Assembly (NCBI GenBank): GCA_950295325.1
Contig: OX485807.1
Coordinates: forward strand, 50,890,796 to 50,954,795
Direction of reading: 5' to 3'
Origin: Polytrichum commune
Lineage: Eukaryota > Streptophyta > Polytrichopsida > Polytrichales > Polytrichaceae
DNA: 64,000 nt
In this document: positions 1-27,366 of the stretch, one piece after another
Numbering within the stretch: position 1 is the first letter of the stretch
Layout: each line of letters begins with the position of its first letter
Translations under genes and position numbers: made by a program
Notes under the pieces: model-generated
Told to the model about the DNA's origin: nothing
The model's database searches: none
The model's input: only the letters and a program-made list of their open reading frames with translations

Positions 1-870
1 CACAGGGTAAACCCACCACACTCGGAAGGGGTTTGGGTCGGTCGACCCAAACTTTCACAGGGTAAGTCCACCCACACTGGGAAAGGGTTTGGGTCGGTCG
101 ACCCAAACTTTCACAGTGTAAATCCACCCACACTGGGATGAGGTTTGGGTCGCTCGACCCAAACATTACATATGATGGGATAAGGTTCCTACTCTGTCCG
201 TCCAAACCTTCTGAGTACCTTGGGTAAGGGCCATTAACAATTCGTTCACGATGTGCGAAAAAGTTTGGGTCGACCGACCCAAACCTTCTGAAAGGTTTTA
301 CGATAAACGCCCATAGTGGGGTAGGGGTTTGGGTCGACCGACCCAAATCTCAGAAGGGTCAGACTAGACCCCCCCCCCCAACACTAGTGAGGGGGTTTGG
401 GTCGACCGACCCAAACCTCACAAGGGTCAGACTAGACCCCCCCCCCCCCCCAAACACTAGTGAAGGGGTTTGGGTCGACCGACCCAAACCTCACAAGGGT
501 CAGACTAGACCCCCCCCCAACACTAGTGAAGGGGTTTGGGTCGACCGACCCAAACCTCACAAGGGTCAGACTAGACCCCCCCCCAACACTAGTGAAGGGG
601 TTTGGGTCGATCGACCCAAACCTCACAAGGGTCAGGCTAGACCCCCCCCCCCAACACTAGTGAAGGGGTTTGGGTCGACCGACCCAAACCTCACAAGGGT
701 GAGACTAGAACCCGCCCACACTAGTGGAGGGGTTTGGGTCGATCGACCCAAACCTCAGAATGGTCAGACTAGAACCCGCCCACACTAGTGGAGGGGTTTG
801 GGTCGACCGACCCAAACCTCACAAGGGTCAGACTGAAACCCGCCAACACTAGTGTCGACCGACGTATAAT
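1..870. repeat. Upstream palindrome array (locus 1)
   Basis: Twelve copies of an interrupted palindrome (10-bp arm GTTTGGGTCG, 2-bp centre, arm CGACCCAAAC) start at about 31, 87, 143, 263, 327, 395, 468, 534, 600, 668, 732 and 796. The last seven sit in a tandem unit of about 66 bp that also holds a poly-C run and ACACTAGTG. The centre dinucleotide varies (GT, CT, AC, AT) while the arms are nearly invariant. Reading frames across this stretch only reflect the repeat and I do not regard them as genes. The array may extend beyond the left edge of the window. Confidence 0.95.
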
Positions 871-1674
871 ACAGCGTATAATGCGGCGTATAATGCAACG
901 GATATTGAGAGGTGTGTGGAATTTCATCTCATTGCAAAGTTCACTGCGGACTTGCATGCTGTGAATAGGTCCTCATGAACAACAGCGTGAACGAACCTCG
1001 AAGTACAGCTCCGACTAAGAGTTCTCTCTACGAATTCAGGAGTGGAAGAAGAGCAAAAAAGAACCAACTTTTGGGGGGTGCGCCCCTTTATACTATCCAC
1101 CTCCACTTGCCCGACTTCCTCATTGGATGCCTTTCCCGCCTTCTTATTTCAAACCTCCTGACATAATTCCCCGTTTTCTGTTTATTGTAGAAAATGCGCA
1201 TCTTTCAATGCCCCTCTCATACCCCAGCCGTCATATGTCTTAGTCTATAATATTTAATATTTTTTTGGTTTTGTGTGTATATGACATACGACATTGGGAG
1301 GAAGGGTGGCGGCCACATTAATTTTTTCAAGTGTCACAACGGTATATTTTAACCAATATGTATACCCAACCACAACTCCATTCAATGCTTTCAAGTGCAA
1401 ACCTATTTAGGTGGGGTTGGGGCCATTTGGAGGTTGCAATTATGAGAGAGTTTCCAAGGCTTGAGGCCATTGTCATGATGAATAAAATTATTTATTTGTC
1501 TCCCCTAAACCCTAAACCCTAGAACATTGCGGCTCTGTTATCTCGCATGGAAGTGTAGCAATGATAAACGTATGTGGACGTTGTTAAGGGGATACTAACT
1601 AGCAATGTCGCTTTTTGGTTCAATCTTTTAATGTTATTTCAATCCATCCTCAAGTTCACTTCAAGTTTACTAAT
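871..1674. other. AT-rich stretch without a supported gene
   Basis: It begins with three GTATAAT-type direct repeats (about 861-900) and then unremarkable AT-rich sequence. A telomere-type run (about 1502-1521) lies inside it. No reading frame has recognisable content. Confidence 0.6.
1502..1521 (+). repeat. Interstitial telomere-type repeat
   Basis: Nearly three units of CCCTAAA, the plant telomere repeat. It is too short to be a telomere and more likely a remnant or a chance or regulatory telo-box. Confidence 0.7.
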
Positions 1675-2520
1675 GTGTGTGACCAAAACATCCAAAGTTG
1701 GACCCTAAACCCTTATAACATCCACAACATGAAATACGTATTGACAAAATACAAAACCAATTAGTATATCATGTTTAAACGTCCCAAATAACATATTAAC
1801 ATGATCAAGATTGTATTTACTATAACCTTCCTATTAGACTCTTCTTCATATTATGCAAACAATATCTGTTATATCTTTCTCCATTATCCAATACATGTGG
1901 AGGGAACAATGAATAAGAACATGATTGCGTGAATGGCTTCATTTGATGTTGTGCTTCTCTTATTTACTTTTGCATCACATTCCATATATTAAATACATCA
2001 TGAACCATGGTTTATTGGCAACTATGTGATTCCCTAAAGTGAGCAAAACATCCAAAGTTGAACCCCTTACCCCTAATAACATCCACAACATTTCATGTTA
2101 TTTGAATAAACACAAGACCATTCACTATATCACGTTTAAACGTCCGTAATAACAAATAAACATAATCAAGATCGTCTTTTCTATTACCTTCCAGTAAAAA
2201 CCTATTCTCACCAGTAAGTCAATGTTATATGTTAATATTGGATAGATTAATATGTTATAAACCTAACTCCTAAACCCTAAACCCTAAACCCTAAATACAA
2301 AAATTCGTAGTTGTTCACTGCTACCTCCACATACAAACAACATGAACTTTATCTTGCGCCATTATGTAATATACGTGGAGGGAACATTCAATAACAACAT
2401 GATTGCGTCAAAGGGCTTCATTTGATGTTGTGGTTCTCCGATTTACTTTTATATCACATTCGAAGTACATATATCACGATCCATGGTTTATTGGCGACTA
2501 TGTGATTCATTCAAGTGAGT
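1675..2520. repeat. Diverged tandem duplication of about 0.4 kb
   Basis: Two diverged copies (about 1675-2037 and 2038-2520) share long collinear words, for example AAAACATCCAAAGTTG, TGGAGGGAACA, ATGATTGCGT, CTTCATTTGATGTTGTG and CCATGGTTTATTGGC, in the same order and orientation. The second copy contains a telomere-type run. No coding potential is visible. Confidence 0.75.
2268..2296 (+). repeat. Interstitial telomere-type repeat
   Basis: About four consecutive CCTAAAC units, longer than the run near 1502. It lies in the spacer between the upstream array and the leader of locus 1. Confidence 0.75.
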
Positions 2521-2955
2521 ATGTAAGGGATTTACTAAAAACTTGAGCATGTTAGCATTTCGACATAAGGATCATGCAATTCCAAACCCTGAGAAAATGC
2601 TCTTGGGGAAGGTATACATTTAGCAAACACATTCAAATATCCTAAATTTCCGAATTTCATGTTGGGGGACGGGGGTTATATTTTTTATTCATTGCATATT
2701 GTGTGAGTTCTTGGCATCATTGGTAAAGTCTAAATGTCAACGATTACATCGTTAAATGTCACGCAATTGTATTATTTTTCTAACTTGCTCAAACAAAAGA
2801 GAAACCAATGATTTCAACTTGTTTGGGAAATTTAGGTTATGGTGTCATGTGAGTAGGGGTTAAGTCTTAGTTTTAGCATAACGTTGCGTTGTAAAAATGC
2901 ATTAGTTGTATAAATGGTTTCATTTTGTAGAATACCGCATTTGATGTGCACCTTA

Positions 2956-3486
2956 TGGGGCATTCCCACTTGACATTAGTTAGAAGTAGTATTAGTCTAA
3001 ATGCGGTTTTAGTTATCTAGGTTTCACACATATGGCTCTTTTTAGTGCCGAGCCTAGGTGGCAAATGATGTGGCATGGCTTAAAAGTGGAGGTTTTAAGC
3101 CTCAACCACCGACGCTCCCATCGGTACCTAAACATTAGGCAAGAATATAGGAATTTTAAAAGTGTCGCCTCCCACCCTTGTGATTGGTTGCTTTTTAGTC
3201 TTAGCTATGAGGGCACGAGGAGCTTCATTAACAAAAACCGATGGTAAGATAGGTGAGTAGTAAGGCATTTGGGGATGGGACAAAAACTACCCAACATTCA
3301 TTGCTTGGTAGATAAAACCATGAACATGTGTGAAAGCTACTTAACTAAAACCTACTTGAAAATCTCCGGAGCAAGTTCTTGTAGGTGCATTGGGATAGTT
3401 GGATGCCTCCGCTATAACCGAGGGAGCTTTACCCGGTCTTTATAAAATAGTGAGGGTCTTAACTAAAGTCAAGTGGGAATGCCCCA
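2956..3486. mobile_element. 531-bp MITE, Tourist/PIF-Harbinger-like
   Basis: The ends are inverted repeats of about 30 bp starting TGGGGCATTCCCACTTGAC, with the right end reading GTCAAGTGGGAATGCCCCA. A TTA trinucleotide stands directly on both sides (2953-2955 and 3487-3489), as expected for the 3-bp target duplication of PIF/Harbinger elements. There is no transposase, so it is non-autonomous. A short open frame at 3032-3247 inside it is not considered a gene. Confidence 0.8.
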
Positions 3487-3639
3487 TTAGGGTACTCCAA
3501 AGTGTCTTGAAAATACTAATGCCCGCTAAGGGTTTACAGTTTGGCTTTAGGATTTAGGGTTCCCCGTAATCCTAATTCCGTTGGTGCCCTAATCCCGTTG
3601 GCACCCTATTCGTGCGGTTGGGGGCCAATTCCCGAGGCA

Positions 3640-4400
3640 TACAAAACCCCAGCCGTCACAACTTTTCGCTCTTTCTCTCTCTCTCCGCGCCAAGCATTCG
3701 CTCCGCGCCTCTTGTGGAAGCGCCGCCTCTCCTGAAGCGCCGCTTTCGCGAAGCGCCGTGGCGATTCAGGGTGGCGATTTTCTTCTCTTCCCTCCCTTCT
3801 TGTTGCTTTGGCGCCTACTGATTCTTCTCCTTCCCTCCCTTCTCTTGCTGTAGAAGTTAGGAAGTGTTTGCAATAGAACAGAAACCTAAGGAGAGAGTTT
3901 TAGAGTGCGTGAGAGTTAGTAGAGTGATTGTTGTAGAGTGAAGTAAGTAGAAGATTGTTGAAGGGTTTTCCAACATTCTAAGCTTGCGGGTTTTGGAGGC
4001 TGTATTGTAGTTGGAGAGTTTGTGAGATTTAGGAGTTCTATAAGATAATCAGGAGGTGTTTGAGAGATACAAAAGTCATTTGAGAGAGTCAGTCATTGTT
4101 TTGAGAGATTCACTTGTTCTTAGGGATTCAGAGGTTGTTTGAAACACTCAATTGTTGTTTGAGAGATATCTAAGTCATTTGAGAGAGTCAGTTATTGTTT
4201 TGAGAGATTCACTTGTTCTTAGAGATTCAGAGGTTGTTTGAAGTATTGAATTGTTGTTTGAGAGATTCAAAAGAGATCTAGGAGTTGTATGAGAGATTGT
4301 GGATTTGTGTGAGAGGTTACATTCAACTGTTTCTGTGTTATTGGAAGAAGAACACCTGTTCTAAAGCAACTGTTTACAACAACTGCTACATACAACAAAG
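3640..4400 (+). promoter_or_regulatory. Putative promoter/5' leader exon of the ParB-like gene
   Basis: A pyrimidine-rich stretch (TCTTTCTCTCTCTCTCCGC near 3668-3688) is followed by a GAGAGTT-rich leader. The leader contains two copies of a repeat of about 115 bp (roughly 4070-4270: TTTGAGAGAGTCAGT, TTCACTTGTTCTTAG, GATTCAGAGGTTGTTTG). It ends in CAACAAAG followed by GTATTT at 4401, a plausible splice donor. An acceptor TTACAG sits directly before the start codon at 5105, so this is read as a non-coding first exon. The transcription start is not determinable. Confidence 0.5.
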
Positions 4401-4519
4401 GTATTTTCTTTTATTATATGCAATAAGTGTTTGTCAATTGAAGGTATTGTAGCATACACAACGCATAAGCATTGTATATGCTACGTGCCAACTTTTAAAA
4501 ATTACATTAAAATAGGAAA

Positions 4520-4817
4520 GTTTGGGGAGACGACCCAAACACGGCCACAGGTTTGGGTCGGTCGACCCAAACACAGCCTCTTGTTTGGGTCGACCGACCC
4601 AAACACAGCCTCTTGTTTGGGTCGACCGACCCAAACACAAAACAAAGCATCATGTTTGGGTCGACCGACCCAAACACAGCCTCTTGTTTGGGTCGACCGA
4701 CCCAAACACAAAACAAAGCATCATGTTTGGGCCGAACGACCCAAACACAGCCTCTTGTTTGGGTCGACCGACCCAAACACAAAACAAAGCATCATGTTTG
4801 GGCCGAACGACCCAAAC
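4520..4817. repeat. Palindrome array in the 5' leader intron
   Basis: About nine copies of the locus 1 palindrome start at 4520 (degenerate), 4551, 4583, 4615, 4654, 4686, 4725, 4757 and 4796. They are spaced 32-39 bp apart by ACAGCCTCTT or ACAAAACAAAGCATCAT linkers. The copies at 4725 and 4796 carry GGGCCG-AA-CGACCC. The array lies wholly within the inferred intron 4401-5104. One further degenerate copy is at 5057-5078. Confidence 0.95.
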
Positions 4818-5104
4818 AACGTCTTCTAATTATAAACTCATAAAGAAATCCATGATTTTTGCATCAATATAAAATTCACATCCACTAAAAAATAATAATC
4901 AAGGAATGTATCAAGGAAAAGTATCAAGTAATCCTGCATGTCACAAACAATATAAAATGCAAATCCACCCAATAATCAAAACATTCTTATTATCAATACA
5001 AATGATGCTGAAATATATAAATATACAATCCACCTAAACCTATTCATGTCGTAGATGTTTGGGTCGAACGACCGAAACTAACATTGCACATTATTTTCTT
5101 ACAG

Positions 5105-8100
5105 ATGGCTCCAAAGAAAAGACCCGGCGAAAGGTGGTTCATGCCTGCGCCGGACATGTTGTGGCAGGAGCACGAAACCCCGCAGGATGACTCCTATTCC
5201 CCTAAGGACGGGCTTGTCCTCGCGTGGTCTATACAAGTGGTTAAGGGTTCGCAATACAAAATGATTTTTGTTGTGAAGGTTGGGACCGTGGAGAAGCACA
5301 CATGGGCTACTCTTACGGGGTGGGAGGTGGCATCGGTTCAGTCTCTTGGAGACTACGTGGATGTCATCCTCGAGAACAACGCTGTCCAGAACGCGCATAT
5401 GTTTATGCACCAGTTCTCCGAACCCTTTGACGCTATCTATGCAAAAGAAACATGTGTAGAACCAGACGTCATCAAACCGGAGTCCATATTCATCGATAAC
5501 AGTACATCGAACACAAAGGTGTCGAGCAGATTCACGAAACTAAAGCATGCAATCAGCGTGCTCAACAAAGCCCTGCAGAGCAAAACCAAGTCTCAGCAAC
5601 CCGTGAGGCGGAAAGCAACCACAGAGGAAGGAGCAGGGTCGTCAAGATCTCAATCGGTGAGGAAGCCGCGACCAGTACCGGCTGACTCGCGGAGGACCAC
5701 TCCCTCCCAAACACCTGCGGATAGCGAGACGCCTACACCTTCTGGGAGCCGTCAAACAACTCCATCCAAGAGGGGGAGAGAGTCATCTGTGATGACTGAC
5801 GAGCCAGTTTCACCGGAGTTGCGCATGCCGAAGCCCGGCGAAGAGGTGGATGCAGGGGAGCTGCAGAAAATCGTGAACAATTTCACGACGAAATGCTCCC
5901 ACTGTTTTTTCATGGGCAGGGATTTTAAGTTCGACGTGAACATCAGCCAGTGCCATCTAGCGCCACCGGAGAAGTGTGTCCGGGCAAAGGAGGACGCCTA
6001 CGTTGACTGGATAATCGCGCAGATCGTTTGCGAGCAGTTTAAAGACGACAGGCAAACGATAGTAGTGATGCCACAGGGTCTCAAGAAAATGCCTACACCT
6101 GAAATGTGGCCCACAATTCAGAAGGGCGATTTTTGGCTCATAGACGGCCAGCACAGCGTGGAGGCATCCAAGAAAATCCAACTCATGAATGAGTGGGATG
6201 ATCCGAACAATCAGAAGGAAAAACTGAAGGTTTGGAAGGCACTAGTGGTGTGGTCTGACGACGAGACCAAGCTCAGCGACATCTCCCGGTACTTCAATAT
6301 GGGAAATAAGAAGAGGGCCTACCAAGCTTCCTGGATAAGGAATATCATGGCCTCGCGGGAGGTGTGGGAGTTCTATGGTAGGCCTCCCAAGGAGAGGGAG
6401 AATGCGAAGGACAAGAATCCCAAATGGGAGGTGAGTATTGTTTAGGTCGACCGACCCAAACTCCTGATGCAGCCTTGTTTATTTAGTTTGGGTCGACCGA
6501 CCCAAACTCCTGATGCAGCTAGTTTATTTAGTTTGGGTCGACCGACCCAAACTCCTGATGCAGCTAGTTTATTTAGTTTGGGTCGATCGACCCAAACTGT
6601 TGTTGCAGATGTTGGTCATGATATGGGTTGGAAATCACATGTACATATCTAACACGCATTCAAATGTTCTGTTTTGTGGACGTGCAGGATTTCAAATACC
6701 AAATGATCAACAAATTCTCCTCCATTGATAATTCGAGCCACAAGCAGAAGAAATACAGCGACCTCAAGGGGGAGATTTACTTGATTACAGCATCTGACTC
6801 AGTTTGGAGGAAGTGGAAAACCGTGTTTGAAAAGCACGAGACGGGGGATTTGATCGACCCCGACACTGGCATTTTCTTCAGCCAAACCTCGCGCTTCAAG
6901 CAGATGAAGCCTCTCGTGAGAGAGTTCTTTAGAACTCTTCAAGGGCTGTCAGAGACGGAGGTGGAGAAGGCGGCATCTCACATCCTGCACGTGGCACCCA
7001 CGGCGAAGAGGTGTTGGGTGCACCCGAAGATTGTCTTCCAAAAGCCCAAATCCTTCGTTCCTTCATGCTACACCATGAAGGAATGGACGGATAACAGGAA
7101 AAAGAAGACGACTATCGTGCAGGAGCTGCATAAACTAGTGCCAGAGAGGAATATTGTCGTGGACGGCGAGGTCCATGAGGCTAACTGGAGAGCATTCAAA
7201 GCTGAATATAAGTTCACCAGTGCCTCCATGGCGGCTCTAATAAGGGAAGCGGGGGACAACTTCTTGCGGGCCAAGATGGTGAAGGGTGGGAAGAACCGGG
7301 CGCTTCCGGATCACACAGCGCGTGCGTTCTCGAACTTCATCAAGGAGAAGAAGATTGTCCAGTTTGAAGGGGAAGCGTACTTCAACCTTGTCACCGCCGA
7401 CCCGTTGAAAATTCAGGGCTGGCCAGGTCAAGACGCCAGAATGGCGATAAGGACGAAAGCAAGGGACCGCTTTCCTTTTGGGATGATTGATTTCAGGAAT
7501 ATTCCTGGAAGCTCATTTGAGGGCACGATGAGCACCCTCTTCTATGACCCCTTCCTATCTAAGTTCGTCGATTATGCAAGCCCTAAGTTCAGGGAGGTAG
7601 ATATCTGGCTTTGGATAGTCGAGGATAGGAGGGCGGAGCAGGTGTACGAGCTTGTCCGGAAACTGCAGCCGGAGTATGCAGTCTCCAAGTCTCACTACAT
7701 CGCCGCACCGGCGGAGGGAGCTTACACGACGTTGAGGGACAAGAAGACCAAGTTCGTCAACGTCTTGTGTTTGTACTTCGTGTACAAAGCGGAGTTGCTG
7801 AAGGTGCCGAACCACCCTATATCCCGGATGGACAAACTCTTCCAAGTTCCAGAAGGGTTGGGTGTCAACAAGTGCCTCTACGACGAGGCTAAATACGCGA
7901 ACTATCCTTTAGATGAGCTGCGGATGGAATTTTACGTGAGAATGATGAGGACGCTGACGAGGAGAGGGGATTGCATCTTCAACGTCTTCGGAGGCTCTAA
8001 ACCTATCTATGTTGCCATGGTAAGCGACTTTCTATAACTCGTGCGCAGTTTGGGTCGATCGACCCAAACTAGGCTCTGTGTTGGTTTGGGTCGATCGACC

Positions 8101-9021
8101 CAAACTAGGCTCTTTGTTGGTTTGGGTCGATCGACCCAAACTAGTCTCTTTGTTGGTTTGGGTCGATCGACCCAAACTACACATTGTACTTGGTCTTGTT
8201 TATGTCCCTCGCCTAATTCTAATGTCTATATAACTTGGATTGTGTAGATGTCGGGGCTGAGTATATACTCCTACATAGAGGATGGCGATCTGCCATTTTA
8301 CAGGACGCAGAGATCGTTGGCGAAGACGATGGACATCCTCGATTGGATCCCGGGTAGCTACGTCGACGAGGTTGTTCAGGGGGGCGAAAACCCTCTTGAT
8401 AGGGTGAGGCGGATCAACCCGGAAGAAATGGCCATGAGGGCCACAACCCAAGAACCCGAACCTCTTGTCGGGTTGCATCCGGGCAATCCGTCCCGCACAG
8501 AAGGTGGCGATGTCGAGGAGGAGGAGGAAGAAGAGGAGCACGAGGAGGCGGAGAAGGAAGGCGACGTGGAGGAAGGGGCAACGGGCTTCACGCAAGAATC
8601 CGAAGCCCCTCAACGGAAGAAGGCGATGCGGGCGGCAACCCCGCAGAGTAAGCTCGTGCCCGTCCTGACGGTGGACGATGCACGGGACATGTACTCCAGG
8701 GACGCGACCGCCACGTTCAGGGAGAGGAGGAAGATGAAGGGGAAGAAGCTGTATGGCGACTACTCCGTGGAGGAGACCATTGCCATAAGCAGCGAGGACG
8801 ACGATGACATTGAGCTCGCCAAACGGCTAAGATCAGATCCCCCGTCCCCGACAGCGTTCGCTGGCATGGTTAGGGTGAAGCCCGAGGTCCTGACTGTGGA
8901 GGAGGCGAACGAGAAGATGAGGAGGGACGAGGAGCAGCGAGTCCGCCTGCAGAAGGCTGCCGCGGAAGAACCCTCAATGCGGAACGAGGTAGCAGAGCTA
9001 AGGGCTCTCGTGTTGGAGTAG
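5105..9021 (+). CDS. ParB-like / degenerate N4/N6-methyltransferase-like protein
   Basis: Three exons are inferred: 5105-6430, 6688-8019 and 8248 onward. All junctions are phase 0 with GTGAGT/GCAG and GTAAGC/GTAG borders, giving 1143 aa before a TAG at 9019. The ATG at 5105 follows a splice acceptor directly. Residues about 330-440 resemble a ParB/sulfiredoxin-type domain: WLIDGQHS (D347, H350), then a segment like the helix after ParB domains (DISRYFNMGNKKRAYQ). The second half follows the order of a circularly permuted N4/N6 DNA methyltransferase: a strand-rich region ending KTKFVNVLCLYFVYK, then ANYPLDELRMEFY, then GDCIFNVFGGSK at 869-880, which matches the cofactor motif GDxVLDPFxGSG but with Asp to Asn and the last Gly to Lys. 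The match spans the exon 2/3 junction. Exon 3 adds an acidic stretch and charged, coiled-coil-like sequence. Catalysis looks lost. The family is inferred from motifs only. Confidence 0.55.
6440..6597. repeat. Palindrome array in intron 2 of the ParB-like gene
   Basis: Four copies start at 6440, 6486, 6531 and 6576, about 45 bp apart, with the linker TCCTGATGCAGCTAGTTTATTTA. All lie inside the inferred intron 6431-6687. The first copy has one arm mismatch (GTTTAGGTCG). Confidence 0.95.
8048..8177. repeat. Palindrome array in intron 3 of the ParB-like gene
   Basis: Four perfect copies with AT centres start at 8048, 8084, 8120 and 8156, a strict 36-bp period, with the linker TAGGCTCTTTGTTG. They fill most of the 228-bp intron 8020-8247. 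The linker differs from those of the other arrays, so each array expanded locally. Confidence 0.95.
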
Positions 9022-9732
9022 GAACGACAGAGGGCGATGGCCCAACCTCCGTCCCACGCCGAATTGATATCACAAGTGATACAAGGAATGTGGGCGCAAG
9101 GTTTGGTGGTGGCTCCCTCCAGCTCCTTCCCGCACTTGCCCCCCGGCTTCCCTCCGCAGAGCATCCCTCAGCAGCCTGTGCCGCAATCGTCTTTCAGCTT
9201 CCAGCACTTGATTCGGCCCCACCAAGTTCCGTACGCGCCGGTCCAGCAAGTGGATGACCCCAACATCTGGCGCGTCTCTGGAGCCTCCTCCCCTTTGGGC
9301 CCTCCACCACTTCGGCCCCCGATAGTCATGGCGCCCCCTCACCAATCGGACGACCCCAGGATGTTTGGGTCGACCGACCCAAACCCACCATCCACTGGAG
9401 TGTCCGAAAGGCCCTCTCCAGATGCAGGACAGTTTGGGTCGCCCGACCCAAACCCCGTTGCAGTGCAGTCCTCCCTTGACCAACATGGGTGTCAACTAGA
9501 CACGGCCATGCTAGATGTTGAAGGCTTGCAAGGGCCTGGTGATACCTCTACTCCTAACCAAATCGATGAACCCATGCATGATGCAAATGCGGAGATTGGT
9601 TTAGGACAAGGGCCTGATGCCGATCGTTTGCAGGAGAAGGTTCCTGACGTCGTCGGAGAAGGCGGTGGCGAGAGAGGCGGGGCAGCGGGGACGGTGGAGG
9701 CTTCCACATCGTCGAGACATGACCAGGGCGAG
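9022..9732 (+). pseudogene. In-frame continuation of the ParB-like gene after TAG
   Basis: The frame of exon 3 continues open past the TAG at 9019-9021 with the same codon style to a phase-0 GAG|GTAATA donor at 9732/9733 (next stop at 9742). The sequence is Pro/Gln/Ser-rich at first, then acidic. The TAG is one base from CAG in a charged segment (LVLE-stop-ERQRA), so a recent nonsense change is the simplest reading. Read-through or a short unrecognised intron ending at that TAG are alternatives. Two palindrome copies (9363-9384, 9432-9453) lie inside this coding stretch and encode FGSTDPN and FGSPDPN. Confidence 0.55.
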
Positions 9733-10224
9733 GTAATACACTGAGCCCTCCCCAGTTTGAGTCGACCGACCCAAACTTGCTGGGTCATTGTCTTGTTGGC
9801 GTGGTCGTGTCCCCCTTGCTAGGAGGAAATGCACACCCCCTGCCCCCCATGCTCTACACTTGCTCCCCCTCCCCCCAACGTGCCCCCCCGCGATCCCCTT
9901 CGTCTCACCTGCACTCGACTATGCTCGACCTTGGCGGCGCGCAACCAATTTTGTAGATGTAGAATTAGGATAGTGTGAATGCCCTCGTTCACCGCAGTCC
10001 CCCCCCCCCAATCAAATTGTACATAGAGATTTGTAAAAATAAAATTATTATTTTTGGCGCCCATATGTTTGCATCCGTGTCCCAATGTATGTTGTTCCCC
10101 TTGTATGTTTTTGTTGCCACCAATGGTCCAATTCTTCTTGTGTTTGCACAAAATTTCCGTTCTGCTTGAGATGGACATAACATAACATAGTCCTCGTCCG
10201 CCTTCTCTCGCTCGTCGCCGCAAG
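9733..10224. other. Probable intron or spacer between ParB-like and FCP1-like frames
   Basis: It holds one imperfect palindrome copy (9755-9776, GTTTGAGTCG arm) just after the donor, then C-rich and AT-rich sequence without coding signals. No phase-0 acceptor of good quality leads into the FCP1-like frame, so it is unclear whether the two frames belong to one transcript. Confidence 0.45.
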
Positions 10225-11036
10225 GTTCGGAGCATAGCGTCGCAGCTCCCCACCGATCCTCTCCGAGGAGTGTGGAGGACAGCGCGGTGGTCCCCCCGAT
10301 TTTGCCCTCGCCACCTTCGCCTCCCAAGACCCGGTTCCTGGTGCTAGACCTCAACGGGGTCCTTGTCCAGTGCGTGCATTGTCCGAGGGTCCCCACGGTG
10401 CCTTTCTGCAAGCCCGAGGACGCCAACTACGATGGTCCCCCCGCGTACATCAAAAGCAAGCTAGTGTACCTCCGCCCGTGGCTTCGGCGCTTCCTGCAGG
10501 TCGCCCTATCCAAATGGTGGGTGATCGTGTGGAGCTCCATGAAGTCCGAGAACACCCAGGCCGTCGTGGAGTTCATCTTCAAGGGACTCCAACCCCCGTG
10601 CTTGGTCCTAGGACAGGACTCTTGTAGAACGTTATACACCCCCGAGGGCAGGGTTGTGAAAAAGCCCAACAACCCCGCCGTAAACCAATTTCTTAAGGTC
10701 TTGAAGCCAGTCGTATGGGACCAGCGTCCGACCATGGTCGGCTGTCCCTACGACGTTCGCCCCACCCGTGACAACACGTTGATGGTGGACGACAGCGCTT
10801 CCAAAAACATTTTGAACCCGACCTCGAACTTCATAGTTTGCCCCACGTGGACGGTCGAGAAGGTCCGAGACCGCTTTTTGTTAGACCTACTTAAATACAT
10901 TCAAACGCTCGTGGGGAGCGGACTACCCGTGCCCCGGTTCCTTAGTTGTAATCCGATAGGCGAAAGATACATGGATCCGAAGGACTATATGTACAGAGAG
11001 TTGTACGCTCACGCGAAATATAATAAACTCATTTGA
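10225..11036 (+). CDS. FCP1/NIF-like (HAD) phosphatase-like protein
   Basis: This is a single open frame with no in-frame ATG. It probably starts at an exon border near 10225-10233 and ends at TGA 11034-11036. HAD motif I reads FLVLDLNGVLV: the first Asp is kept, but the second Asp of the FCP1 signature (DLDET) is Asn. The usual downstream segment follows (KLVYLRPWLRRFL), then motif II VIVWSSMKSEN, then an acidic motif TLMVDDSASK. This order is that of CTD-phosphatase-like NLI-interacting-factor domains. From general knowledge, plant FCP1-like relatives with DxNG exist, so the Asn need not mean decay, but classical phosphatase activity is doubtful. A partial relative lies at 26957 inside the 9.7-kb transposon. 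The cellular role is unknown. Confidence 0.7.
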
Positions 11037-13326
11037 GATACTACATGGTGTGCCATTGTGTGTGATATATTATGCCTCAATTGTATATCGATTTTCACAT
11101 GCTCCCCCCTCCCCCCCTGTGAGGCCAAACCCCCCACCCTTAAGCGTCCGTAGTCCGAGTAGTGGGTTTGGGCTCACATTCCTCCGCGGTATTGGATTTG
11201 GACTTGGATGAGTCCATAGTGCAAGGTTCACCCTTCAAGTGGTCTTGGATTTAACTGGAATTTCACTTTTAACAACTCAATGTACGATTTCAATACGTAT
11301 GTGGAGAATGCACAAATTAACTATGTTATTTTAACCTCCTTATGCTCGGGTGCTATTTTGTCTTTGTTTGCTTCTAACGTCCATCCGGCTGCTTTAGCTA
11401 CACAAGCCCTTAAGGATATCCCTCTCCTAAATGGAGTCCGTGCCGTTGACTCTATACTACCACTTGAACTATCACTTGTGTATTCCGTATCGCTACTATA
11501 AGAGGTCTCACTTGGTGTCTCCATACCGTACATAAGCCTTTAAGTATTAAGAAATACTTATGTGACTTATGTCAATCTCTCCCTCGCACCTTTGGTCTTT
11601 GCTTCCTTTGTCTTGCCATCGCAAGAGTGCTCCACATTCTCCATTAAGTTGTGCACGTGGTTTATTTTTAAAGAGAGGATGCAAGTGTTAAAAAAAAACA
11701 CTATTCTCTATAGTCAATCTCAAATACATTTACTTGTGAAAGCCACACATAACACTAACTAGCATAATGTAACTAACTACTTGTCTATGAGCTAATTAGG
11801 TAGGCTATCTACTAAGCTCCTTCATGAACCCATCTCTTTACTTTCTAATTACATAAACCTAGCTCCTTCATAAACCCAGCTCCTTCATAAACCCAGCTTC
11901 TTAGCTTCTAACTAAACAAACCCAGCTCCTTCATAAACCCAGCTCCTTCATGAACCCAGCTCCTTAGCTTCTAACTAAACAAACCCAGGTCCTTCATAAA
12001 CCCAGCTCTTTACTTTCTAACTAAACAAACCCAGCTCCTTCATAAACCCAGCTCCTTCATGAACCCACAACTTTGTAGTTGTAATCCCCAACTACCTCAC
12101 TAATTATTCAAGCCCTTAACTAATCTTCCTACCTAATTTCCCTAATTCTACTAACAACCCCTTTCTAATCACACAATTCTTCTCTAATCCTAAAATCCTA
12201 AAATCCTAGAGAGGAGAGGGGGAGAGAGAATTTCCTAACTTCACTAAGACTAACTAATCCACACAAGTATATTTTTGCACTCATCACAACATCAAGTGCT
12301 CAACTCTTAAACATGGAACTTGCAACCACGTGTATTCAAAACATGAACTTTAAGTACCACAAATTGGAATCATGAATTAACTTTAAAATCCTTCACGTCA
12401 ACACTAATTCTACCAAGAGGTCAAGCCCTCTTCAAGGCTAACAAGCCTTGGCTCTCAAACTAAAAACTAAGCACACACATGTGCTCCAATATGGCTTCCC
12501 ACACCCACACTTATAACTCGTGGGGTGCCTTGGAGCACAAAGGAAAGAGAGGATGAGTGAGGGAAGAATGAGGGATTATATAGTAAGCTTGAGGGGGTGA
12601 GCACCCTCAAGGCTCACGATAAGCCCTTGAGATTTCCTCCTACTTAGTAGGCGCCAATCCTATCTTCTAAGTCTTCCTCCCTCAAATGATCAACAAGGAT
12701 CCTAATTCGAACATTTAACTAGCCTTGGCTTTCTACCTACCACACTTTACCAAACTTGGGATGCTTCAACCCAAACTTAGCCTCCTTCGCTTTCCGCCGC
12801 CATAACTTTCTCCCCTTACTTTCCCAAATCGTCGCTCACCACTTAATTCAAACCACGATGCTTAACTCGTGATTTGATTGGTGCTTTGAGAATTTGCTTA
12901 TCCTCCACCTTGCATTCTTCCTTGGGCCTTCCCCATTAAGTGGCCATGATGAGGTGGTCCACTTGTGCGCTCCATGTGATCCTCCATTCATCCCAATTCG
13001 AATGCACTTGCCTCTTGAGTCACTTTGGTTGTCTCCATCCATTTGTACTAGCCTACTCACTAACTACTCAATCCAAGTTCTCCTTACCTATCCTCATTCA
13101 CTCAAATCCTTCCGAAGGTAAAAACACAATAACAACTCACATCCTAGCCTCTTACAACATGGTACTTCTAAGACTAACATTTCACTCTTTTTATATTTTT
13201 GTGAAGTAACATGCTACTTCAAAGTGCATCAACTAACGTTTCAAGGGTCTAAGACTAAATGTGGGCACCCTTTTGGGCTCACACCCCCTCCCCTTGGGTT
13301 TTGTTTTGTTTCCTTTTTTGCGCCAG
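11037..13326. other. AT-rich stretch with short tandem repeats
   Basis: Nothing recognisable as a gene is seen. It separates the FCP1-like frame from the tail exons. In the 9.7-kb element the corresponding exons are only about 0.1 kb apart, so much of this stretch could be an insertion, but no clean terminal repeats or target duplication were found. Short open frames here (for example 11280-11501 and 12894-13209) show no family features. Confidence 0.5.
11814..12066. repeat. CCCAGCTCCTTCATAAA minisatellite
   Basis: About ten copies of a unit built on ACCCAGCTCCTTCATAAA alternate with TTCTAACTAAACAA segments. Non-coding. Confidence 0.85.
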
Positions 13327-14127
13327 CGTTTGGAGCCCTCGATTGAGATCGTCAGCGAATCAAACTTGGGGAGCTTCTTCTACGAGACCGTCTACGATGC
13401 CGCGTCCACCATCGACTACTCCAAGGAGCCTATCGACGCCGGCGTCGTCGATAGCCCCCCACCCAAGCAAATCTTCCGGCCATCTCCGTCCCCGTCGCCG
13501 CTCAAGGGCATAAATCGCAAATGCGTCCGGACGTCCCCGTCTCGGCCCGGCGGCAGTAGTACACCTCAACGGCGGCTGCGGATGGACGCTCGGCCTACGA
13601 AGAGTGGCACCCTTCCTATTCCTTTGCGGGACGCATTGCCCCTCCTCGCCGACTCCGACGGGAACGCCCCCGGTGACAAGGTGAACCCCCCCCCCCAAAC
13701 ATGGTTAACCGCGCATTACAATCATCCGGCACTTAAAAAATGAACGTGTGACACGTTTGGGTCTTCCTCCCTAAACTAACACGTGTGTTCTTGCATTGAC
13801 GCGTTGCAGGTTGCTCCCACCCGTAAACCTATGCGGGCTAGTGCGTCCGTCGAGTTGGAGCGTTTCTACTCCATGACCAGAAATGCAAGACAGTCCACTT
13901 CATCGTATTCGAATTCTTCGTCGTATAATTCGGGCGGCCGACGGAATCCAAAATGTGTTTTTGATGGCGGTCACCCCAAGAATGGCTATAGTCGCGGGGC
14001 GGAGATTTTCAGGAATGTTGAAGCAATGCGAGCAAAAGAAGCCGCAGCAAAAGAAAAAGAGGCAAAAGAAAAAGAGGCAAAAGAAAAAAAAAAGCAAAAG
14101 AAAATGAAGCAAAAGAAAAAGAGGTAG
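13327..14127 (+). CDS. Two-exon basic-tail reading frame (unknown function)
   Basis: Exon 13327-13680 follows a CCAG acceptor and ends AAG|GTGAAC. Exon 13810-14127 follows TTGCAG. The junction is phase 0, and upstream exons are not resolved. The first exon is acidic and then Pro/Ser/Arg-rich. The second holds SYNSGG and a YSRGAEIFRNVEAM block and ends in a Lys-rich tail of EKEAK repeats (coiled coil or nuclear-type basic tail). The second exon is clearly related to 27367-27735 in the 9.7-kb transposon (shared YNSG, GYS-G-EIF, EA). It may be the 3' end of the ParB/FCP1-like transcription unit or a separate gene. No known family recognised. Confidence 0.5.
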
Positions 14128-14279
14128 TCTCCGAGGCTAGATAGGCCATAGTAGGCGTAGGGTTGTGGGCCATAGGCAAGAACATTTTGGGTCGCACTAT
14201 CCAATGGATGTGTGGTGTTAGCATGCTATGCATTTTACATGCCACACTTTGTATGTTTTTTTTGCAATAATATAAGTGT

Positions 14280-14530
14280 CACATGATTTCCCCTTCCATA
14301 TGGTCTAAGGTTTGGATTGCCCTACCTAAACCATCACAAATATGAGTTTGGAATATTTTGTATGTTATATTATATTGGTTCACATATTTCCCCTTCAATA
14401 TGATCTATGGTTTGGATTGCCCTACCTAAACCATATTCATACAAGTTTTTGTGCGATAATATGAATGTTTTAAGATTTCCCCTTCAACTTGGCCTAAGGT
14501 TTGGATTGCCCACCCTAAACAATCCCAAAT
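14280..14530. repeat. Three copies of a GGTTTGGATTGCCC...CCTAAACC unit
   Basis: A unit of about 95 bp recurs at about 14300, 14395 and 14490. It starts TTTCCCCTTC and contains AAGGTTTGGATTGCC followed by TAAACC, an imperfect inverted repeat. The unit sits just after the tail exon of locus 1. Confidence 0.8.
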
Positions 14531-14636
14531 ATGAGTTATTAATGGGGATCTTGTTCTAAACACCCGCTTCAAAGTGTTCGCATCTTACAACTTTCTCCAA
14601 TATGTGTTCCATTTATCCTTGTTCTTATTTTTGTGA

Positions 14637-14692
14637 ATGTCTCAAAATGCCCAAAAAGTCTCAATTTAACGAATATAGTGTTATAATACCTA
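14637..14692. repeat. Subterminal motif shared with the 9.7-kb transposon
   Basis: The words GTCTCAAAAT, CAAAAAGTCTC and CGAATATAGTGTTATA occur in the same order and spacing as at about 28046-28099, near the right end of the 18793-28499 element. The inverted form of part of it lies near that element's left end (about 18927-18980). This marks locus 1 as the same mobile family or a derivative. Confidence 0.75.
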
Positions 14693-18929: not shown

Positions 18930-20240
18930 TTATATAACACTATATTCGTTAATCGGAGACTTTGGAAAGTCTCAAAATCAAATTCACCCATAGTTTGGGA
19001 TGCCAATATTGTGAGCATACATTATAATGGGAACATTGGGAACATTGGGAAAATGATAGTTCATAAGTTTGTACGCAAAGAATATTCACATTACTAAATA
19101 TAGTAAATTTAAATATCGTGATCAAAACATGAACTTCACATGGAAAATAACAATCAAATCTCCCAAAAAATGGTTTTATGTCATTATAGAGTCTAGGATG
19201 CGCATCCCATATGGAAAGGTCTTATTGAATTAGATGGCATATCCCAAACTTATTTAAAATAAGTTTGAATGTAGCCACAATACAACCAAGTCTATACAAT
19301 GCCCCTATTTTCACACTAATTCCAACCTATGTTATGTCCACCGAAAGATGTATCCACAAACACACCCACCACGATTGTCCCGTCAATATTGTCAGCCGAT
19401 CGGGAAGAGAGTTCACATTCATTATCTAAAGACGATGCATATGTCGACAACACAAAGGCACTATCTACTACATCCACTACCATCACACCTAAAAAACAAC
19501 CATGGAATGGACAACCGCATAACCGATGCTATGCAAATAAGAGTGGACACACTATATGTGAGTATATATGACCTGAAATACATACATTTTCCAACTAAAG
19601 AGACAATAATGACTAGCAAACCAAAGACACGCTCGCATTGTGGACATTAAAAAGTAGGTGTTGGGATACCATTGGAGAACCTCATAAATAAACACGAACA
19701 TGTGTTCCAAAACAATCCATGGTCAGGTGCAAATAATCCTTATTTTTCCATTCCAATAAACATGGGCATCACATGGTGTTATTTATTATCTTTAGAAGGC
19801 GTTGAAATGATTTGTTAAGTAACCATGGACATGGTTCTACATCAATACAAGACATGATTTTCACATATGTTCACGAACGCGCGGTCGTAAAGCACATCCC
19901 ATTTCATGATCAAATGTGCATGGGACAAACAACACATGATGTTAAAGATCACACGATACATATATTCACATTGGTGTCAAAGAACATTATACATGCATAT
20001 GAAAAAAACTGAATGATATGGATTTAAAAAATATTAGTCGCATACACAGTCGACACGATGTATGCCGTCGATTATAGGCCCAAAATACAAAAAAATACGA
20101 CTTGGGATATACGAATGGGCGTTCGTATACCTCCCTATACATATTCCAGGAGGGTATCTTTATGAACGGCCGCGCGTATGTCACATGTTGTATTTTTTAT
20201 GGCAAATAAAATTTAGACTGTAATAATTGTGGTATTTTAC
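18930..20240. other. Left interior of the 9.7-kb element, no gene
   Basis: AT-rich sequence. Short open frames here (for example 19329-19571) lack family features. Degenerate halves of the TTTACGAACG palindrome appear from about 19860 (TTCACGAACGCGCG) and 20110-20170. Confidence 0.5.
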
Positions 20241-20970
20241 GGATGTACTTTCGCAAAACGTATGCCATCATACGGGTATTTGGGGCAATTGGATTGGTAT
20301 ACTCCATACGAATGGCCGTTCCTAAAGCTTTGGTAGGTATCTTTATGAATGCCCATTCGTATATCATCATGACAGACTTGTATCATATATCATCATCATA
20401 TTTGGGTCGATGCATAGATGTGTCTATGTATGGATGTTGTTTGGATATATAGACCATATTCACAGGTGGTATTTACAAACGACCGTTCATAAGGCTTTGG
20501 GTCATATCTTTACGAACGTGCGTTCGTATATCACCATGACATATTATTTGGGTCTATGCATAGATGTATGTCCATCTATGGATGTTCCTAGACACATAGA
20601 CCATACTCATAGGTGGTATTTACGAACGCACGTTCGTATATCACTATGATATATTATTTGGGTCTATGCATAGATGTATGTCTATCTATGGATATTGCTA
20701 GATACATAGACCATACTCACAGGTGATATTTACGAACGCACGTTCGTAAACTCTTAGCCATCACATGTGATTGAATCATTAATACAAATGCGTTCATTTG
20801 TGATTTACGAACGCGCATTTGTAAACTCTCAATCACCATATATGTTTCAACCAATACTACAAATGCGTTGATTTGTGATTTACGAACGTGCGTTTGTAAA
20901 CTCTCAACCATCATCTATGTTTGAACCAATACTACAAATGCATTGATTTGTGATTTGTGATTTATATTTG
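20240..20970. repeat. Tandem units carrying TTTACGAACG palindromes
   Basis: Units of about 125 bp (about 20395, 20525 and 20645) contain ATTTGGGTCTATGCATAGATGTATGTC, CATAGACCATACTCA and one palindrome each (TTTACGAACG, 2 bp, CGTTCGTA). Shorter units of about 85 bp follow (20730-20960), in which TTTACGAACGNNCGTTTGTAAAC alternates with ACAAATGCGTTGATTTGTGA. Several copies are decayed in the right arm (CATTTGTAAA, CGTTTGTAAA). Confidence 0.85.
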
Positions 20971-21375
20971 TACCATAAGTTGGTTGAAGGCTTGAAGCTT
21001 AGAAACATTGGATCTGGATTCGGTTTGCGAAAACCACCTTTGACCAAAAATGTTAGCTAGTCATAAGGACCCGAAAACTCCACTATAGGTTGTAGAAGGT
21101 TACAAATGCCAGCTCTAAGCTTATATTATGGAAACAACATCTAAAAGTTGGCCATTCAGACCAAAAACGTGAGCTCGTAGGTAGTGTCCAAGACATATTT
21201 TTTAGCCTTAAACGGAAGTTTAAGGCGATCATACGTCAAAGGAGTTTTCTAGAGATGCACTAGGTTGGGAGGTGTTTTTGCAAGGCTTGGAAATGACTAG
21301 CAACAAAAGAGTTAATGTAGCAAGGAAGGACTGCAAACACCCATTAACAATGGGCTTTCATATATACGTACTATG
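20971..21375. repeat. Left arm of a nested long inverted repeat
   Basis: About 400 bp whose reverse complement is at about 25527-25921 with only scattered differences. Shared words include AAAACCACCTTTGACC, GGACCCGAAAACTCCACTATAGG, GTAGTGTCCAAGACATA and AACACCCATTAACAATGGG. Together with the palindrome arrays just inside each arm, the structure forms a potential foldback of about 5 kb inside the 9.7-kb element. No target duplication is seen at its outer edges. Confidence 0.9.
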
Positions 21376-21419
21376 CAGCATTTGGTTGCTGCGCAGAAGT
21401 TTACGAAAATGTGGGCCGA

Positions 21420-21925
21420 TGTTTACGAATGCCCGTTCGTAAATGTGCATCGAGGTTTACGAACGCCCGTTCGTAAATGTGGGCCGAGGTTTACGAACGC
21501 ACGTTCGTAACTGTGCAACACTTGGTTGCTACGCAGAAGCTTACGAAAATGTGGGCCGATGTTTACGAACGCCTGTTCGTAAATGTGGGCCAAGATAAAT
21601 GTGCGCCGATGTTTACGAACGCACGTTCGTAACTATGCAGCACTTGGTTGCTGCAAAGAAGTGTACGAAAATGTGGGCCGAGGTTTACGAATGTCCGTTC
21701 GTAAATGTGCGCTGACGTTTACGAACGCACGTTCGTAACTATGCAGCACTTGGTTGCTGCGCAGAAGTGTACGAAAATGTGGGCCGAGGTTTACGAACGC
21801 CCGTTCGTAAATGTGCGCTGACGTTTACGAACGCACGTTCGTAACTATGCAGCACTTGGTTGCTGCGCAGAAGTGTACGAAAATGTGCGCCGACGTTTAC
21901 GAACGCGCGTTCGTAAAACTCCGGA
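21420..21925. repeat. TTTACGAACG palindrome array, left
   Basis: About ten interrupted palindromes (arm TTTACGAACG, 2-bp centre CC, CA, CT or CG, arm CGTTCGTAAA or CGTTCGTAACT). They alternate with GCAGCACTTGGTTGCTGCGCAGAAGTGTACGAAAATGTGGGCCGA linkers. Period about 60-110 bp. The layout is like the upstream array of locus 1 with a different palindrome sequence. Confidence 0.95.
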
Positions 21926-21929
21926 ATAC

Positions 21930-24080
21930 GCGGCGGTATATGCGGTGGATATACATTGTACGTACATGAAGTGTGTAGTGTGGACGCATAGAAATGTGAT
22001 ATGCGCGCACTCCTACAAGTCTCTAGAGCAGTCTCTAGAGCATGCCGCAAAAAAGAGCTATGGTGTGGGGGGGAAGACCTTTAAGTACTGCTCTAGGGCG
22101 ATTCAAAATCCCTTGGATGCTCTTTAAAAAGCGGATTCCCGCTGCCTACCTTAACCTAACAATATGTCATTCTATCCATGCGAAACATGTATGACGCTAT
22201 GTATGGAACATGTATGGCATGCATGCAACATATTGAAAATATTAATGTCGCTCGCACACCTTAGGTGTTACCAAGGCCTCAGGATAAAAACATAAATACT
22301 ATAATAGTCAAATGTTATTGAAATATGATGATGCTTAACATTAAATAAATGATTTGTGACCAAGTTATGAAATCCAAGTTTTTTGGGCAATTGATACCTA
22401 TATGTTACCAAGGTCTAAGTGATATATATATATACACATACATACAATGAGGTAGGAGTGGGTCAAAATTAGTTGTGGAGGCCCCTAAAATTGTATATAT
22501 TATATGATTCACATCAAAACATGTCCAGAATATGCTCACTAAGTGTGTGGACACCAATAAAAAGTCGGATTAATTTGGAATGGCTTGTAAGGTAAAGGAA
22601 GGATATGATATGAAACCATACCTAAATATAATGTAGGTCTTAATTTAAGTGCAAACCTAGATGTGGAAAGATTGAATTAATCCGGAATGTGTGGCAAGAT
22701 TGAAATTAATTTGGAATGGTACATAAGGTAGAGTAAGCATATGAATTCAAAACATACCTAGGTCGAGTCACACTAATTGCATGTTTTTGCATCCTACGAG
22801 AAGTAGGTGCATAACTAAAAGTATTCATTTAAAGTTGAGTCTTAAGACATGCATGTTAGAATAAGATTAAGTATGGACTGTGTGATCAAAATGCACTCAA
22901 CATTATTAAGGTGAAAGAGGAAGAATTCCAAACTTCACTTTTGACGTAAACCAAAGTTGTATCCCAAATCCAATTTTAAATCTTGAAATGACAATCGGCA
23001 TGATTCTCAATAGTTGTTATTAACCGGATGAAGCAATATCCAATCCAAACAACATTGGTAGACCAGTTGGACATGCCCACATACCACAACATGGCCACAT
23101 ATTTTGAATATTGGTAAGATTAAAAGATTTAGGGATGTAGGGTTTAGGATTTGGGGTTAGGGTTTGTGAAAGTTGTGCATGCCCGACAGTTAATACAATA
23201 GATTACACACACAAACGATATTGACTACTCAATAGCCCATATTGCACTCACTTAATTATGTAGAATGCACATTTTATACTTACCAAACATCCGATCACAT
23301 GGCTCAAATACACTTAGTTCAAGTTGAAGTTAAAGTTCAATGCACTATACAAATGTTAGTTCAAGTTGACACCTAATTATATGAATTGATGACATGTTCG
23401 AAATTGAATTTCCCTCCACCTCTACTAAAATTAAGTTCACCCCGTCCCCCCAATCTCAAATTGTGTATTTTATGAAGCTAATAATTATTAGAGGAACTAA
23501 TGAACAACTTGAAAGATATTTCATTTTTGAAAACATTATATTTCAAAACACCATATGAGCATCCTTGGGGTTGGATTCTTCATCAAATTTCTACTAAATG
23601 ATGTGCATTGTTCACTACAAATTTATACTCCCTATGTACCTAATGTTTACAAAAGAACCAAATGTATAGGGACTAATAGAATGGGGAGAAAAAATTCATT
23701 TGTATTTATACTAAGCTATTCAAATCAATATGATAAACACCTATACTACATATACATAATACAAAACATGAATTAAACATGCCTTTATTACTTACAAATT
23801 CTACTTTTATTTTCATGCACGAGAGTCATCGAACGCTTTTCCATCCTAACAAGTATGGACAAGGTAGTCATATGACTGCCTCTATAATATGACAACAATT
23901 CATGTATCGTAACTTGGATGAAACTAACACATTTCAATGGTAACAAATTCCCTCCCCACCCTTATCCCATCCCATCCCATCCCATCCCATCCCCTCCCCT
24001 CCCCACACCCCATCCCACCACATCCCAACCCTTCTCACGTGGAGGAGGCCACGTAGCAACGATAGGGAAACCCTAGCGGC
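21930..24080. other. AT-rich spacer inside the 9.7-kb element
   Basis: No gene is supported. It includes a degenerate telomere-type run near 23145-23170 (GGGTTTAGGATTTGGGGTTAGGG) and an (ATCCC)n microsatellite at about 23966-24003. Its position corresponds to the spacer 870-3640 of locus 1. Confidence 0.5.
23966..24003 (+). repeat. (CATCC)n / (CCCTC)n microsatellite
   Basis: Five CATCC units followed by CCCTC units. Confidence 0.85.
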
Positions 24081-24865: not shown

Positions 24866-25345
24866 TGTTTACGAACGGGCGTTCGTAAACTTCAGCGCAA
24901 CAACCAAGTGCTGCACAGTTACGAACGTGCGTTCGTAAACGTCGGCTCACGTTTACGAACGGGCGTTCGTAAATCTCGGCCCACATTTACGAACGTGCGT
25001 TCGTAAACCTCGGCCCACATTTTCGTAAAATTCTGCGCAGCAACAAAGTGCTGCATAGTTAGTAAATGTGCGCCGACTTTTACGAACGGGCGTTCGTAAA
25101 CCTCGGCCCACATTTTCGTAAAATTCTGCGCAGCAGCAAAGTGCTGCATAGTTAGTAAATGTGCGCCGACTTTTACGAACGGGCGTTCGTAAACCTCGGC
25201 CCACATTTACGAACGGGCGTTCGTAAATCTCCGCCACATTTACGAACGGGCGTTCGTAAACCTTGGCCCACATTTTCGTAAACTTCTGCTCATCAACCAA
25301 GTGTTGCACTGTTACGAATGTGCGTTCGTAAACCTCGACGAGTAT
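24866..25345. repeat. TTTACGAACG palindrome array, right
   Basis: About nine to ten copies with GG, TG or CG centres (at about 24868, 24918, 24952, 24985, 25078, 25169, 25204, 25238 and 25310). They alternate with AAATTCTGCGCAGCAGCAAAGTGCTGCATAGTTAG linkers, the reverse complement of the linkers in the left array. It forms the inner part of the right inverted arm. Confidence 0.95.
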
Positions 25346-27328: not shown

Positions 27329-27366
27329 TTTACCCACTCCACTCTGTCTATGATATTGTTTCACAG

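Follow-up and report, generated by a model that had tools for sequence, protein, structure and literature searches.

A ParB-like gene of a high-copy moss transposon lies amid arrays of its own palindrome, and the two differ together between transposon branches

Why would a gene with a ParB-like core sit among repeated copies of a single palindrome in the genome of a moss? We addressed this question in a stretch of 64,000 nucleotides from Polytrichum commune (GenBank assembly GCA_950295325.1, contig OX485807.1, positions 50,890,796 to 50,954,795; G000:C5:50890796-50954795 in our genome searches, which covered 408 Mb on 64 contigs), hereafter the window. The original prediction had described a plant gene whose ParB-like and methyltransferase-like protein binds the palindromes and marks or bridges them. 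Terminal inverted repeats (TIRs), a target-site duplication (TSD), and genome-wide copies instead identify it as a gene of a high-copy transposon, with a large family in the genome. Protein and palindrome diverge together across two branches of this family. Most likely, the gene is an accessory regulatory gene of a TIR transposon with DUF7869 and NIF-type (NLI-interacting factor-like) phosphatase genes.

The features of this element (transposon A) are as follows, in window coordinates:

1..14682, plus strand: transposon A, window part (whole element G000:C5:50886705-50905477, 18,773 bp)
31..817, no strand: palindrome A array, 12 copies, in the stretch separating the ParB-like gene from the divergent DUF7869 gene
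4401..5104, plus strand: inferred intron of the 5' untranslated region, upstream of the ATG (intron 0), with 9 palindromes A at 4551-5078
5105..6430, plus strand: exon 1, N-terminal region and ParB/DGQHR-like core (IDGQHS), ratio of nonsynonymous to synonymous substitution rates (dN/dS) 0.05-0.12
6431..6687, plus strand: intron 1, with 4 palindromes A at 6440-6597
6688..8019, plus strand: exon 2, ending in NVFGGSK, the methyltransferase part of the original prediction (genome search, dN/dS, alignment)
8020..8247, plus strand: intron 2, with 4 palindromes A at 8048-8177
8248..9021, plus strand: exon 3 up to the in-frame TAG of the window copy (inferred splice, open frame)
9022..9744, plus strand: continuation of the exon-3 frame, open after the TAG, with palindromes A at 9363 and 9432
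9755..9776, no strand: last near-exact palindrome A, just past the exon-3 frame (motif search)
10272..11036, plus strand: NIF-type phosphatase open reading frame (ORF) (PF03031, E 1.1e-13)
14655..14682, minus strand: right TIR, exact 28-bp inverted match
14683..14686, no strand: right TSD, ATAA (flank comparison)

The ends of the element were found in a self-comparison of the window plus the upstream 10 kb, used for finding inverted repeats, which yielded an exact 28-bp inverted repeat at -4090 and 14682. The left end is thus 4.1 kb before the window start (piece L004). The TIRs begin AACACTATATTCG, with end sequences AACACTATATTCGTTAA; the ends read AACACTATATTCGTTAAATTGAGACTTT, and ATAA flanks both sides as a 4-bp TSD. 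Genome-wide, the end pattern ACACTATATTCGNTAA occurs 675 + 688 times, and its reversed control 1 + 1 times. Between these ends lie a leftward gene that matches DUF7869 (PF25273, E 3.4e-40, Pfam) and is divergent from the ParB-like gene, the palindrome array, the ParB-like gene itself, and the NIF-type phosphatase ORF, which perhaps has further exons at 13320-14130 (by eye). Based on its place and conservation, the DUF7869 protein is the probable transposase; we found no paper mentioning DUF7869 in the open-licence literature searched. A relative of ~257 bp, 57 kb upstream, contains one A-like palindrome; its ends are nearly identical (ATCACTATATTCG) and are flanked by CTAG on either side. CACTA transposons have a TIR starting CACTA and a 3-bp TSD. 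We rejected membership in this group based on the 4-bp TSDs (ATAA/ATAT) and the TIR start AACACTA; no 3-bp repeat is present if the TIR is taken to begin at CACTA.

Palindrome A (GTTTGGGTCGRYCGACCCAAAC) occurs between positions 31 and 9776 in 24 exact copies, or 32 at ≤3 mismatches, which upholds the array of the original prediction and revises its count of 33. The 32 copies are distributed over the upstream region (12), intron 0 (9), intron 1 (4), intron 2 (4), the exon-3 frame (2), and the sequence past exon 3 (1). The predicted placement upstream, in introns, and in exon 3 is therefore confirmed, with the qualifications that one of the three introns is inferred upstream of the ATG and that the two exon-3 copies, at 9363 and 9432, are in frame but behind an in-frame TAG in the window copy. 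Five further copies lie just left of the window (≤4 mismatches). Degenerate A-like palindromes are found near the right end of the element (14310, 14410, 14499), and degenerate sites at 13755, 14310, and 14410 fall in looser counts, outside the 32. When the window and the 10 kb before it were shuffled ten times in 2-mers, none of the shuffles contained a match at ≤4 mismatches. Across the genome, the motif (also written GTTTGGGTCGNNCGACCCAAAC) has 9231 exact copies, and its reversed-pattern control has 0. In the 274 kb of fetched sequence, 43 of 45 matches at ≤5 mismatches are inside element A; the two others are one in the ~257-bp element and one stray. On contig C1 (contigs C1-C7, met in fetched pieces, are 42 to 78 Mb each), paired exact TIRs enclose 61 of the first 100 A sites listed, and 16 more are within 19 kb inward of a lone TIR. 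There are three such pairs, which together take up 2.1% of the first 2.16 Mb; the enclosed A sites are in two of them.

The palindromes are conserved while their intron spacers diverge. Across the three introns, at 20 fixed positions per palindrome, 4 of 340 positions are off consensus in the window copy, 6 of 240 in copy L025, 6 of 220 in L026, and 7 of 240 in L027. The spacers of the latter three are 74%, 73%, and 89% identical to those of the window copy, i.e., they diverge by 26%, 27%, and 11%. Arrays differ among themselves in spacer and period, and copy numbers vary as well: in the order window, L025, L026, and L027, there are 9, 6, 5, and 5 palindromes in intron 0, 4, 3, 5, and 4 in intron 1, and 4, 3, 1, and 3 in intron 2.

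Splice sites of the ParB-like gene were inferred from consensus, open frame, and conserved positions. The three inferred exons encode 1143 residues up to the TAG at 9019-9021, which is ahead of both exon-3 palindromes. Copies L026 and L027 have no stop at this place; L026, which was read far enough, has the same frame end as the window copy and another stop in between. A genome search with exon 2 returned 1232 candidates, of which 95 were scored; all are 92-100% identical and 72 of the 95 are stop-free. Against the diverged copies L025 and L026, dN/dS is 0.05-0.11 at a synonymous divergence (dS) of 0.40-0.96, and against the closer copy L027 it is 0.12-0.26 at dS 0.09-0.28; the aligned pieces of exons 1 and 2 in these comparisons are gap-free. 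Judged by these ratios, the protein is under purifying selection and so was needed during the spread of the element. Some A-type copies are broken, with exon 1 interrupted by an insertion in L025 and containing one stop in L027. The exon-1 protein alignments omit L027, L028, and L036 (an in-frame stop in each), as well as L025 (interrupted exon 1) and L033 (start aligned in two pieces).

A second transposon in the window led to the other branch of the family:

18936..28091, plus strand: transposon B, 9,156 bp, with the same first 13 bases at both ends as A; TSD ATAT
19870..26895, no strand: palindrome B TTTACGAACGNNCGTTCGTAAA, 34 copies at ≤4 mismatches, 36 at ≤5

Despite the common element ends, palindrome B is unrelated to palindrome A; what the motifs have in common is a CGNNCG centre and a TTT/AAA close to each outer end, which in A is shifted inward by one base. 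All 36 of the 36 B matches in the fetched 274 kb are inside element B, and the genome contains 2909 exact copies (control 0). Of 86 distinct B sites listed on C1, 26 are enclosed by one TIR pair, and another 38 are on the inward side of a lone TIR, at most 19 kb from it. No ParB-like or DUF7869 ORF was seen in transposon B, which is probably non-autonomous.

Gene-carrying relatives of element B do exist. We chose C1:2270108-2276150 for reading because B sites there are spaced like the arrays that element A has in its promoter, intron 0, and intron 1. The region contains a paralogue that shares 36% identity in exon 1 and 40% in part of exon 2. Its intron 1 is at the same position and holds two B sites, and its intron 0 has ten; the copy is broken by a stop plus insertions. 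Searching the genome with a 224-residue piece of it gave 955 candidates, 150 of them scored, at 89-100% identity. We fetched ten more B-type genes, chosen to cover a range of identities and open-frame lengths; in each of them, intron 0 contains 6-12 B sites and intron 1 contains 1-2. At ≤3 mismatches, then, B sites are present in both introns of all 11 B-type genes read, and none of these genes has an A site; all 4 A-type genes (three fetched plus the window part of element A) have A sites and no B site. The two B-type genes that were read further are 34-36% identical to A over long stretches (24% for one C-terminal part) and also have B sites in intron 2 and the exon-3 frame. One B-type gene reads into a NIF-type ORF (PF03031, E 4.1e-9), and the B branch carries its own DUF7869 gene, 55-65% identical to that of A. 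Set against the 34-36% of the ParB-like protein, this indicates that the transposase-type protein diverged more slowly and the ParB-like protein faster. Palindrome arrays are thus present in other A-type and B-type members of the family, contrary to what would have refuted the original prediction, and the claim that the protein belongs to the palindromes is supported: the two branches, ~36% identical, each have their own palindrome in the same introns. That each branch has its own gene version amid its own palindrome suggests that the protein recognises its element's own DNA.

Within the B-type copy at L028:2864-5335, the insertions look by eye like copies of one repeat, which also occurs inverted further on, so elements of this transposon family are targeted by another repeat.

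What kind of protein is this? Exons 1 and 2 have no above-threshold family match in Pfam, PHROGs, NCBIfam, PADLOC, or PDB, and exon 2 has no match in viral contigs. The core matches GmrSD_N (PF03235) at E 0.095 at best (2 of 10 members; 12.8 bits vs a cut-off of 33.2) and DGQHR (TIGR03187) at E 0.14 (3 of 10 members; 11.9 bits vs 58.85). Both are DGQ[QH]R families, and in two of the three matching members the DGQHR alignment spans the IDGQHS block, at residue 165 of the pieces. In 10 of 10 aligned members, DGQHS is invariant, with S for the R of DGQ[HQ]R. DUF262 (GmrSD_N) has been assigned to the ParB-like superfamily, and a similarity to the DGQHR domain reported, in the available part of PMC4619093. 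ParB_N (PF02195), on the other hand, gave no match at E up to 10 for A exon 1, B-type exon 1, or the cores. The unrelated profile MPN396 matches the core equally well (E 0.11, 2 of 10 members), and another chance-level match is PDB 5x2e (E 0.026). What stands of the predicted ParB kinship is therefore the sub-threshold likeness to DGQHR and GmrSD_N, and a ParB/DGQHR kinship is weakly supported by the sequence. AlphaFold2 without an alignment gave models of the 954-residue spliced protein and the 203-residue core with mean predicted local distance difference test scores (pLDDT) of 34.1 and 37.9, too low for a fold comparison. The PF02195 search of the genome gave three matches in all, on contigs C12 and C23; these true ParB_N matches (G000:C12:29034-29273 and C23:8829-9982, best E 5.7e-10 and 2.1e-9) are perhaps organellar or bacterial.

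N4/N6 DNA methyltransferases have a catalytic motif IV, DPPY/DPPW, and a motif I, FxGxG. In the profile searches, no methyltransferase profile or PDB chain is among the matches, and DPPY/DPPW is absent where expected, an alignment of three sequences from both branches showing IDFR[NG]IP (placed by eye). The same three sequences have a motif-I-like NV[FC]GGSK (by eye). The methyltransferase part of the original prediction was thus not supported.

The layout recalls the VANC/VANDAL system of Arabidopsis. In VANDAL21, the introns of VANC21 and VANB21 and the sequence upstream of VANA21 contain tandemly repeated VANC motifs (PMC5735166, available part); these motifs vary between copies and go with methylation loss (PMC5735166, PMC10398659, available parts). 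Both systems have an element-encoded protein distinct from the transposase, a family-specific motif tandem-repeated in the protein's own introns and upstream of the transposase-type gene, a repeat number that varies among copies, and a protein and motif that differ between related families. In both branches here, the protein is inside a transposon with a DUF7869 gene, DUF7869 being the presumed transposase. The target differs, a 22-bp palindrome here and the 9-bp YAGTATTAY for VANC, as do the 4-bp TSD, DUF7869, and the NIF phosphatase gene. No common protein profile was found (Pfam gives none above threshold for this protein), and the likeness to VANC described here is one of layout.

Other systems share parts of this picture. 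In Salmonella, the promoter of DndB, a protein with a DGQHR motif, contains TACGN10CGTA palindromes to which DndB itself binds (PMC4507180, available part). Motif B contains TACG-N10-CGTA at the DndB spacing, and motif A does not, with TTGG in place of TACG; the chance of this pattern in a random 22-bp palindrome is ~1/256, with two motifs examined, which makes it a lead. The likeness to DndB also includes the DGQH motif and the proposed action on the own locus, but DndB belongs to a bacterial operon with two sites, and the DGQHR profile match here is sub-threshold (E 0.14). In the N-terminal domain of GmrSD (DUF262), a DGQQR block aligns with IDGQHS (PMC4619093, available part); however, the match is E 0.095 at best, and no nuclease partner domain was seen here. 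CACTA (En/Spm) elements have TnpA, an accessory protein that binds DNA at many places within the element. The present transposon likewise has an accessory protein with many putative sites and ends containing the letters CACTA, but its TIR starts AACACTA, its TSD is 4 bp, and its sites are internal rather than subterminal.

From the VANDAL21-like layout, we infer that dimers of the protein bind its own palindromes and that it opens or controls the element encoding it, in the manner of VANC, and we consider this reading probable. Dimers would bind the 22-bp palindrome through the ParB/DGQHR-like core, and the many sites in introns and the divergent promoter would gather many dimers on each copy. 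Bound dimers would then keep the non-coding DNA of the element unmethylated and transcribed (anti-silencing), as VANC does for VANDAL. Arrays could enlarge through local tandem duplication, and joint change of protein and motif could lead to the separation of families. Both binding and anti-silencing are proposed here by analogy. A modest sign comes from CpG transitions, which make up 24 of 46 substitutions in the 34 B sites of the gene-less element B and 14 of 128 in 130 sites of gene-carrying B pieces (Fisher p 4.6e-8, sites treated as independent); in A sites, they make up 0 of 12 and 1 of 19. This contrast would follow from lower methylation of sites in gene-carrying elements.

Several points weigh against this anti-silencing interpretation. 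No profile puts the protein above threshold in a DNA-binding family, and the two branches represent one independent motif change. In the CpG comparison, the gene-less B is a single element that may be older, site selection also lowers CpG loss, and some of the gene-carrying copies counted are broken; at looser cut-offs in the window, CpG transitions account for 28 of 56 substitutions in B sites and 2 of 24 in A sites. Aligned palindrome columns with the variable centre are 93-94% identical, in L027 just 5 points above the spacers, and finding sites by consensus likeness misses decayed ones, which makes conservation look somewhat higher than it is. On C1, 23 of 100 listed A sites and 22 of 86 listed B sites are near no exact TIR, and therefore part of the sites are in older or other copies. 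Finally, autoregulation by the same protein would give the same pattern.

Such autoregulation is itself an alternative: the ParB-like protein could bind the palindromes but repress the element's genes, as a DndB-like copy-number control. Sites that lie between the divergent genes, or in introns close to the start of the gene, fit a repressor, as does the spacing that motif B shares with the site of DndB in its own promoter (PMC4507180, available part). We nevertheless regard this as rather unlikely. The 9231 + 2909 exact sites in the genome and arrays spread over 10 kb exceed what an operator needs, and a coating of the element better accounts for the palindromes within introns 1 and 2 and within the coding sequence. 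The palindromes might otherwise serve transposition, as sites for the DUF7869 transposase or another element protein. CACTA elements have subterminal repeats as transposase binding sites, nearly all sites in the fetched 274 kb are within the element, and three degenerate A-like palindromes (14310, 14410, 14499) are near the right end. The arrays are internal, however, and DUF7869 remains 55-65% identical between branches despite a wholly different motif, when the ParB-like protein is only ~35% identical; this role is distinctly unlikely.

The clustering of palindromes around the gene, together with the weak DGQHR/GmrSD_N matches, might also call to mind a ParB-style cytidine triphosphate (CTP) clamp that spreads along or bridges DNA, and the motif-I-like NVFGGSK (by eye) a site-marking methyltransferase. 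Neither a ParB_N nor a methyltransferase profile matches, no DPPY/DPPW is present, and the PDB gave no such match, which leaves a clamp or methyltransferase very improbable. Location in introns and tandem arrays with array-specific spacers would suit RNA hairpins or neutral tandem repeats carried by the element. We give this almost no credence, as near-perfect palindromes contrast with 26-27% spacer divergence, palindromes are also present between the divergent genes, and the whole motif switches with the protein branch.

Returning to anti-silencing, the element may tentatively represent a second, independently evolved class of transposon-encoded, sequence-specific anti-silencing, with a ParB/DGQHR core of prokaryotic origin, a dead methyltransferase-like C-terminus, and a palindrome switched between families of one transposon; we think this possible, though doubtful. 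If true, self-targeting anti-silencing arose at least two times in plant transposons, on different proteins, and its target here would be a clean 22-bp palindrome, in two versions, suited to straightforward binding assays. As a natural swap of specificity, the two branches would provide a route to the residues that choose the site, and elements with DUF7869, an uncharacterised domain, would gain a functional lead. The open-licence literature searched contained no transposon-encoded anti-silencing in moss that we found, and for anti-silencing, palindromes, DNA transposons, and TIRs, no such system was among the titles and abstract openings examined. The nearest case among them is that of fungal transposons encoding TET/JBP dioxygenases (PMC12730594, available part).

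Transposon B has two further features:

20992..21372, plus strand: internal inverted repeat of 381 nt, left arm (98% complementary to the other arm at 25528-25908)
26957..27735, plus strand: remnant resembling the later part of the NIF phosphatase gene (by eye)

The 381-nt inverted repeat flanks the palindrome B arrays. A similar B-site layout recurs at C1:640864-646099, judged by positions alone, and a non-autonomous subfamily of this form may have spread. Positions 26957-27328 of the remnant have no Pfam match.

Outside the two elements, a 614-residue ORF adjoins element A (L004:1832-3676, minus strand); its pattern SDGCAGQFK...GTGHGKGEWDGAG recalls transposase-like proteins, and it has no significant Pfam match. 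Between elements A and B lies a 517-residue ORF (15070-16623, minus strand) with no Pfam match, and fragments at 41013-44876 (minus strand) resemble a copia-type retrotransposon polyprotein (by eye).

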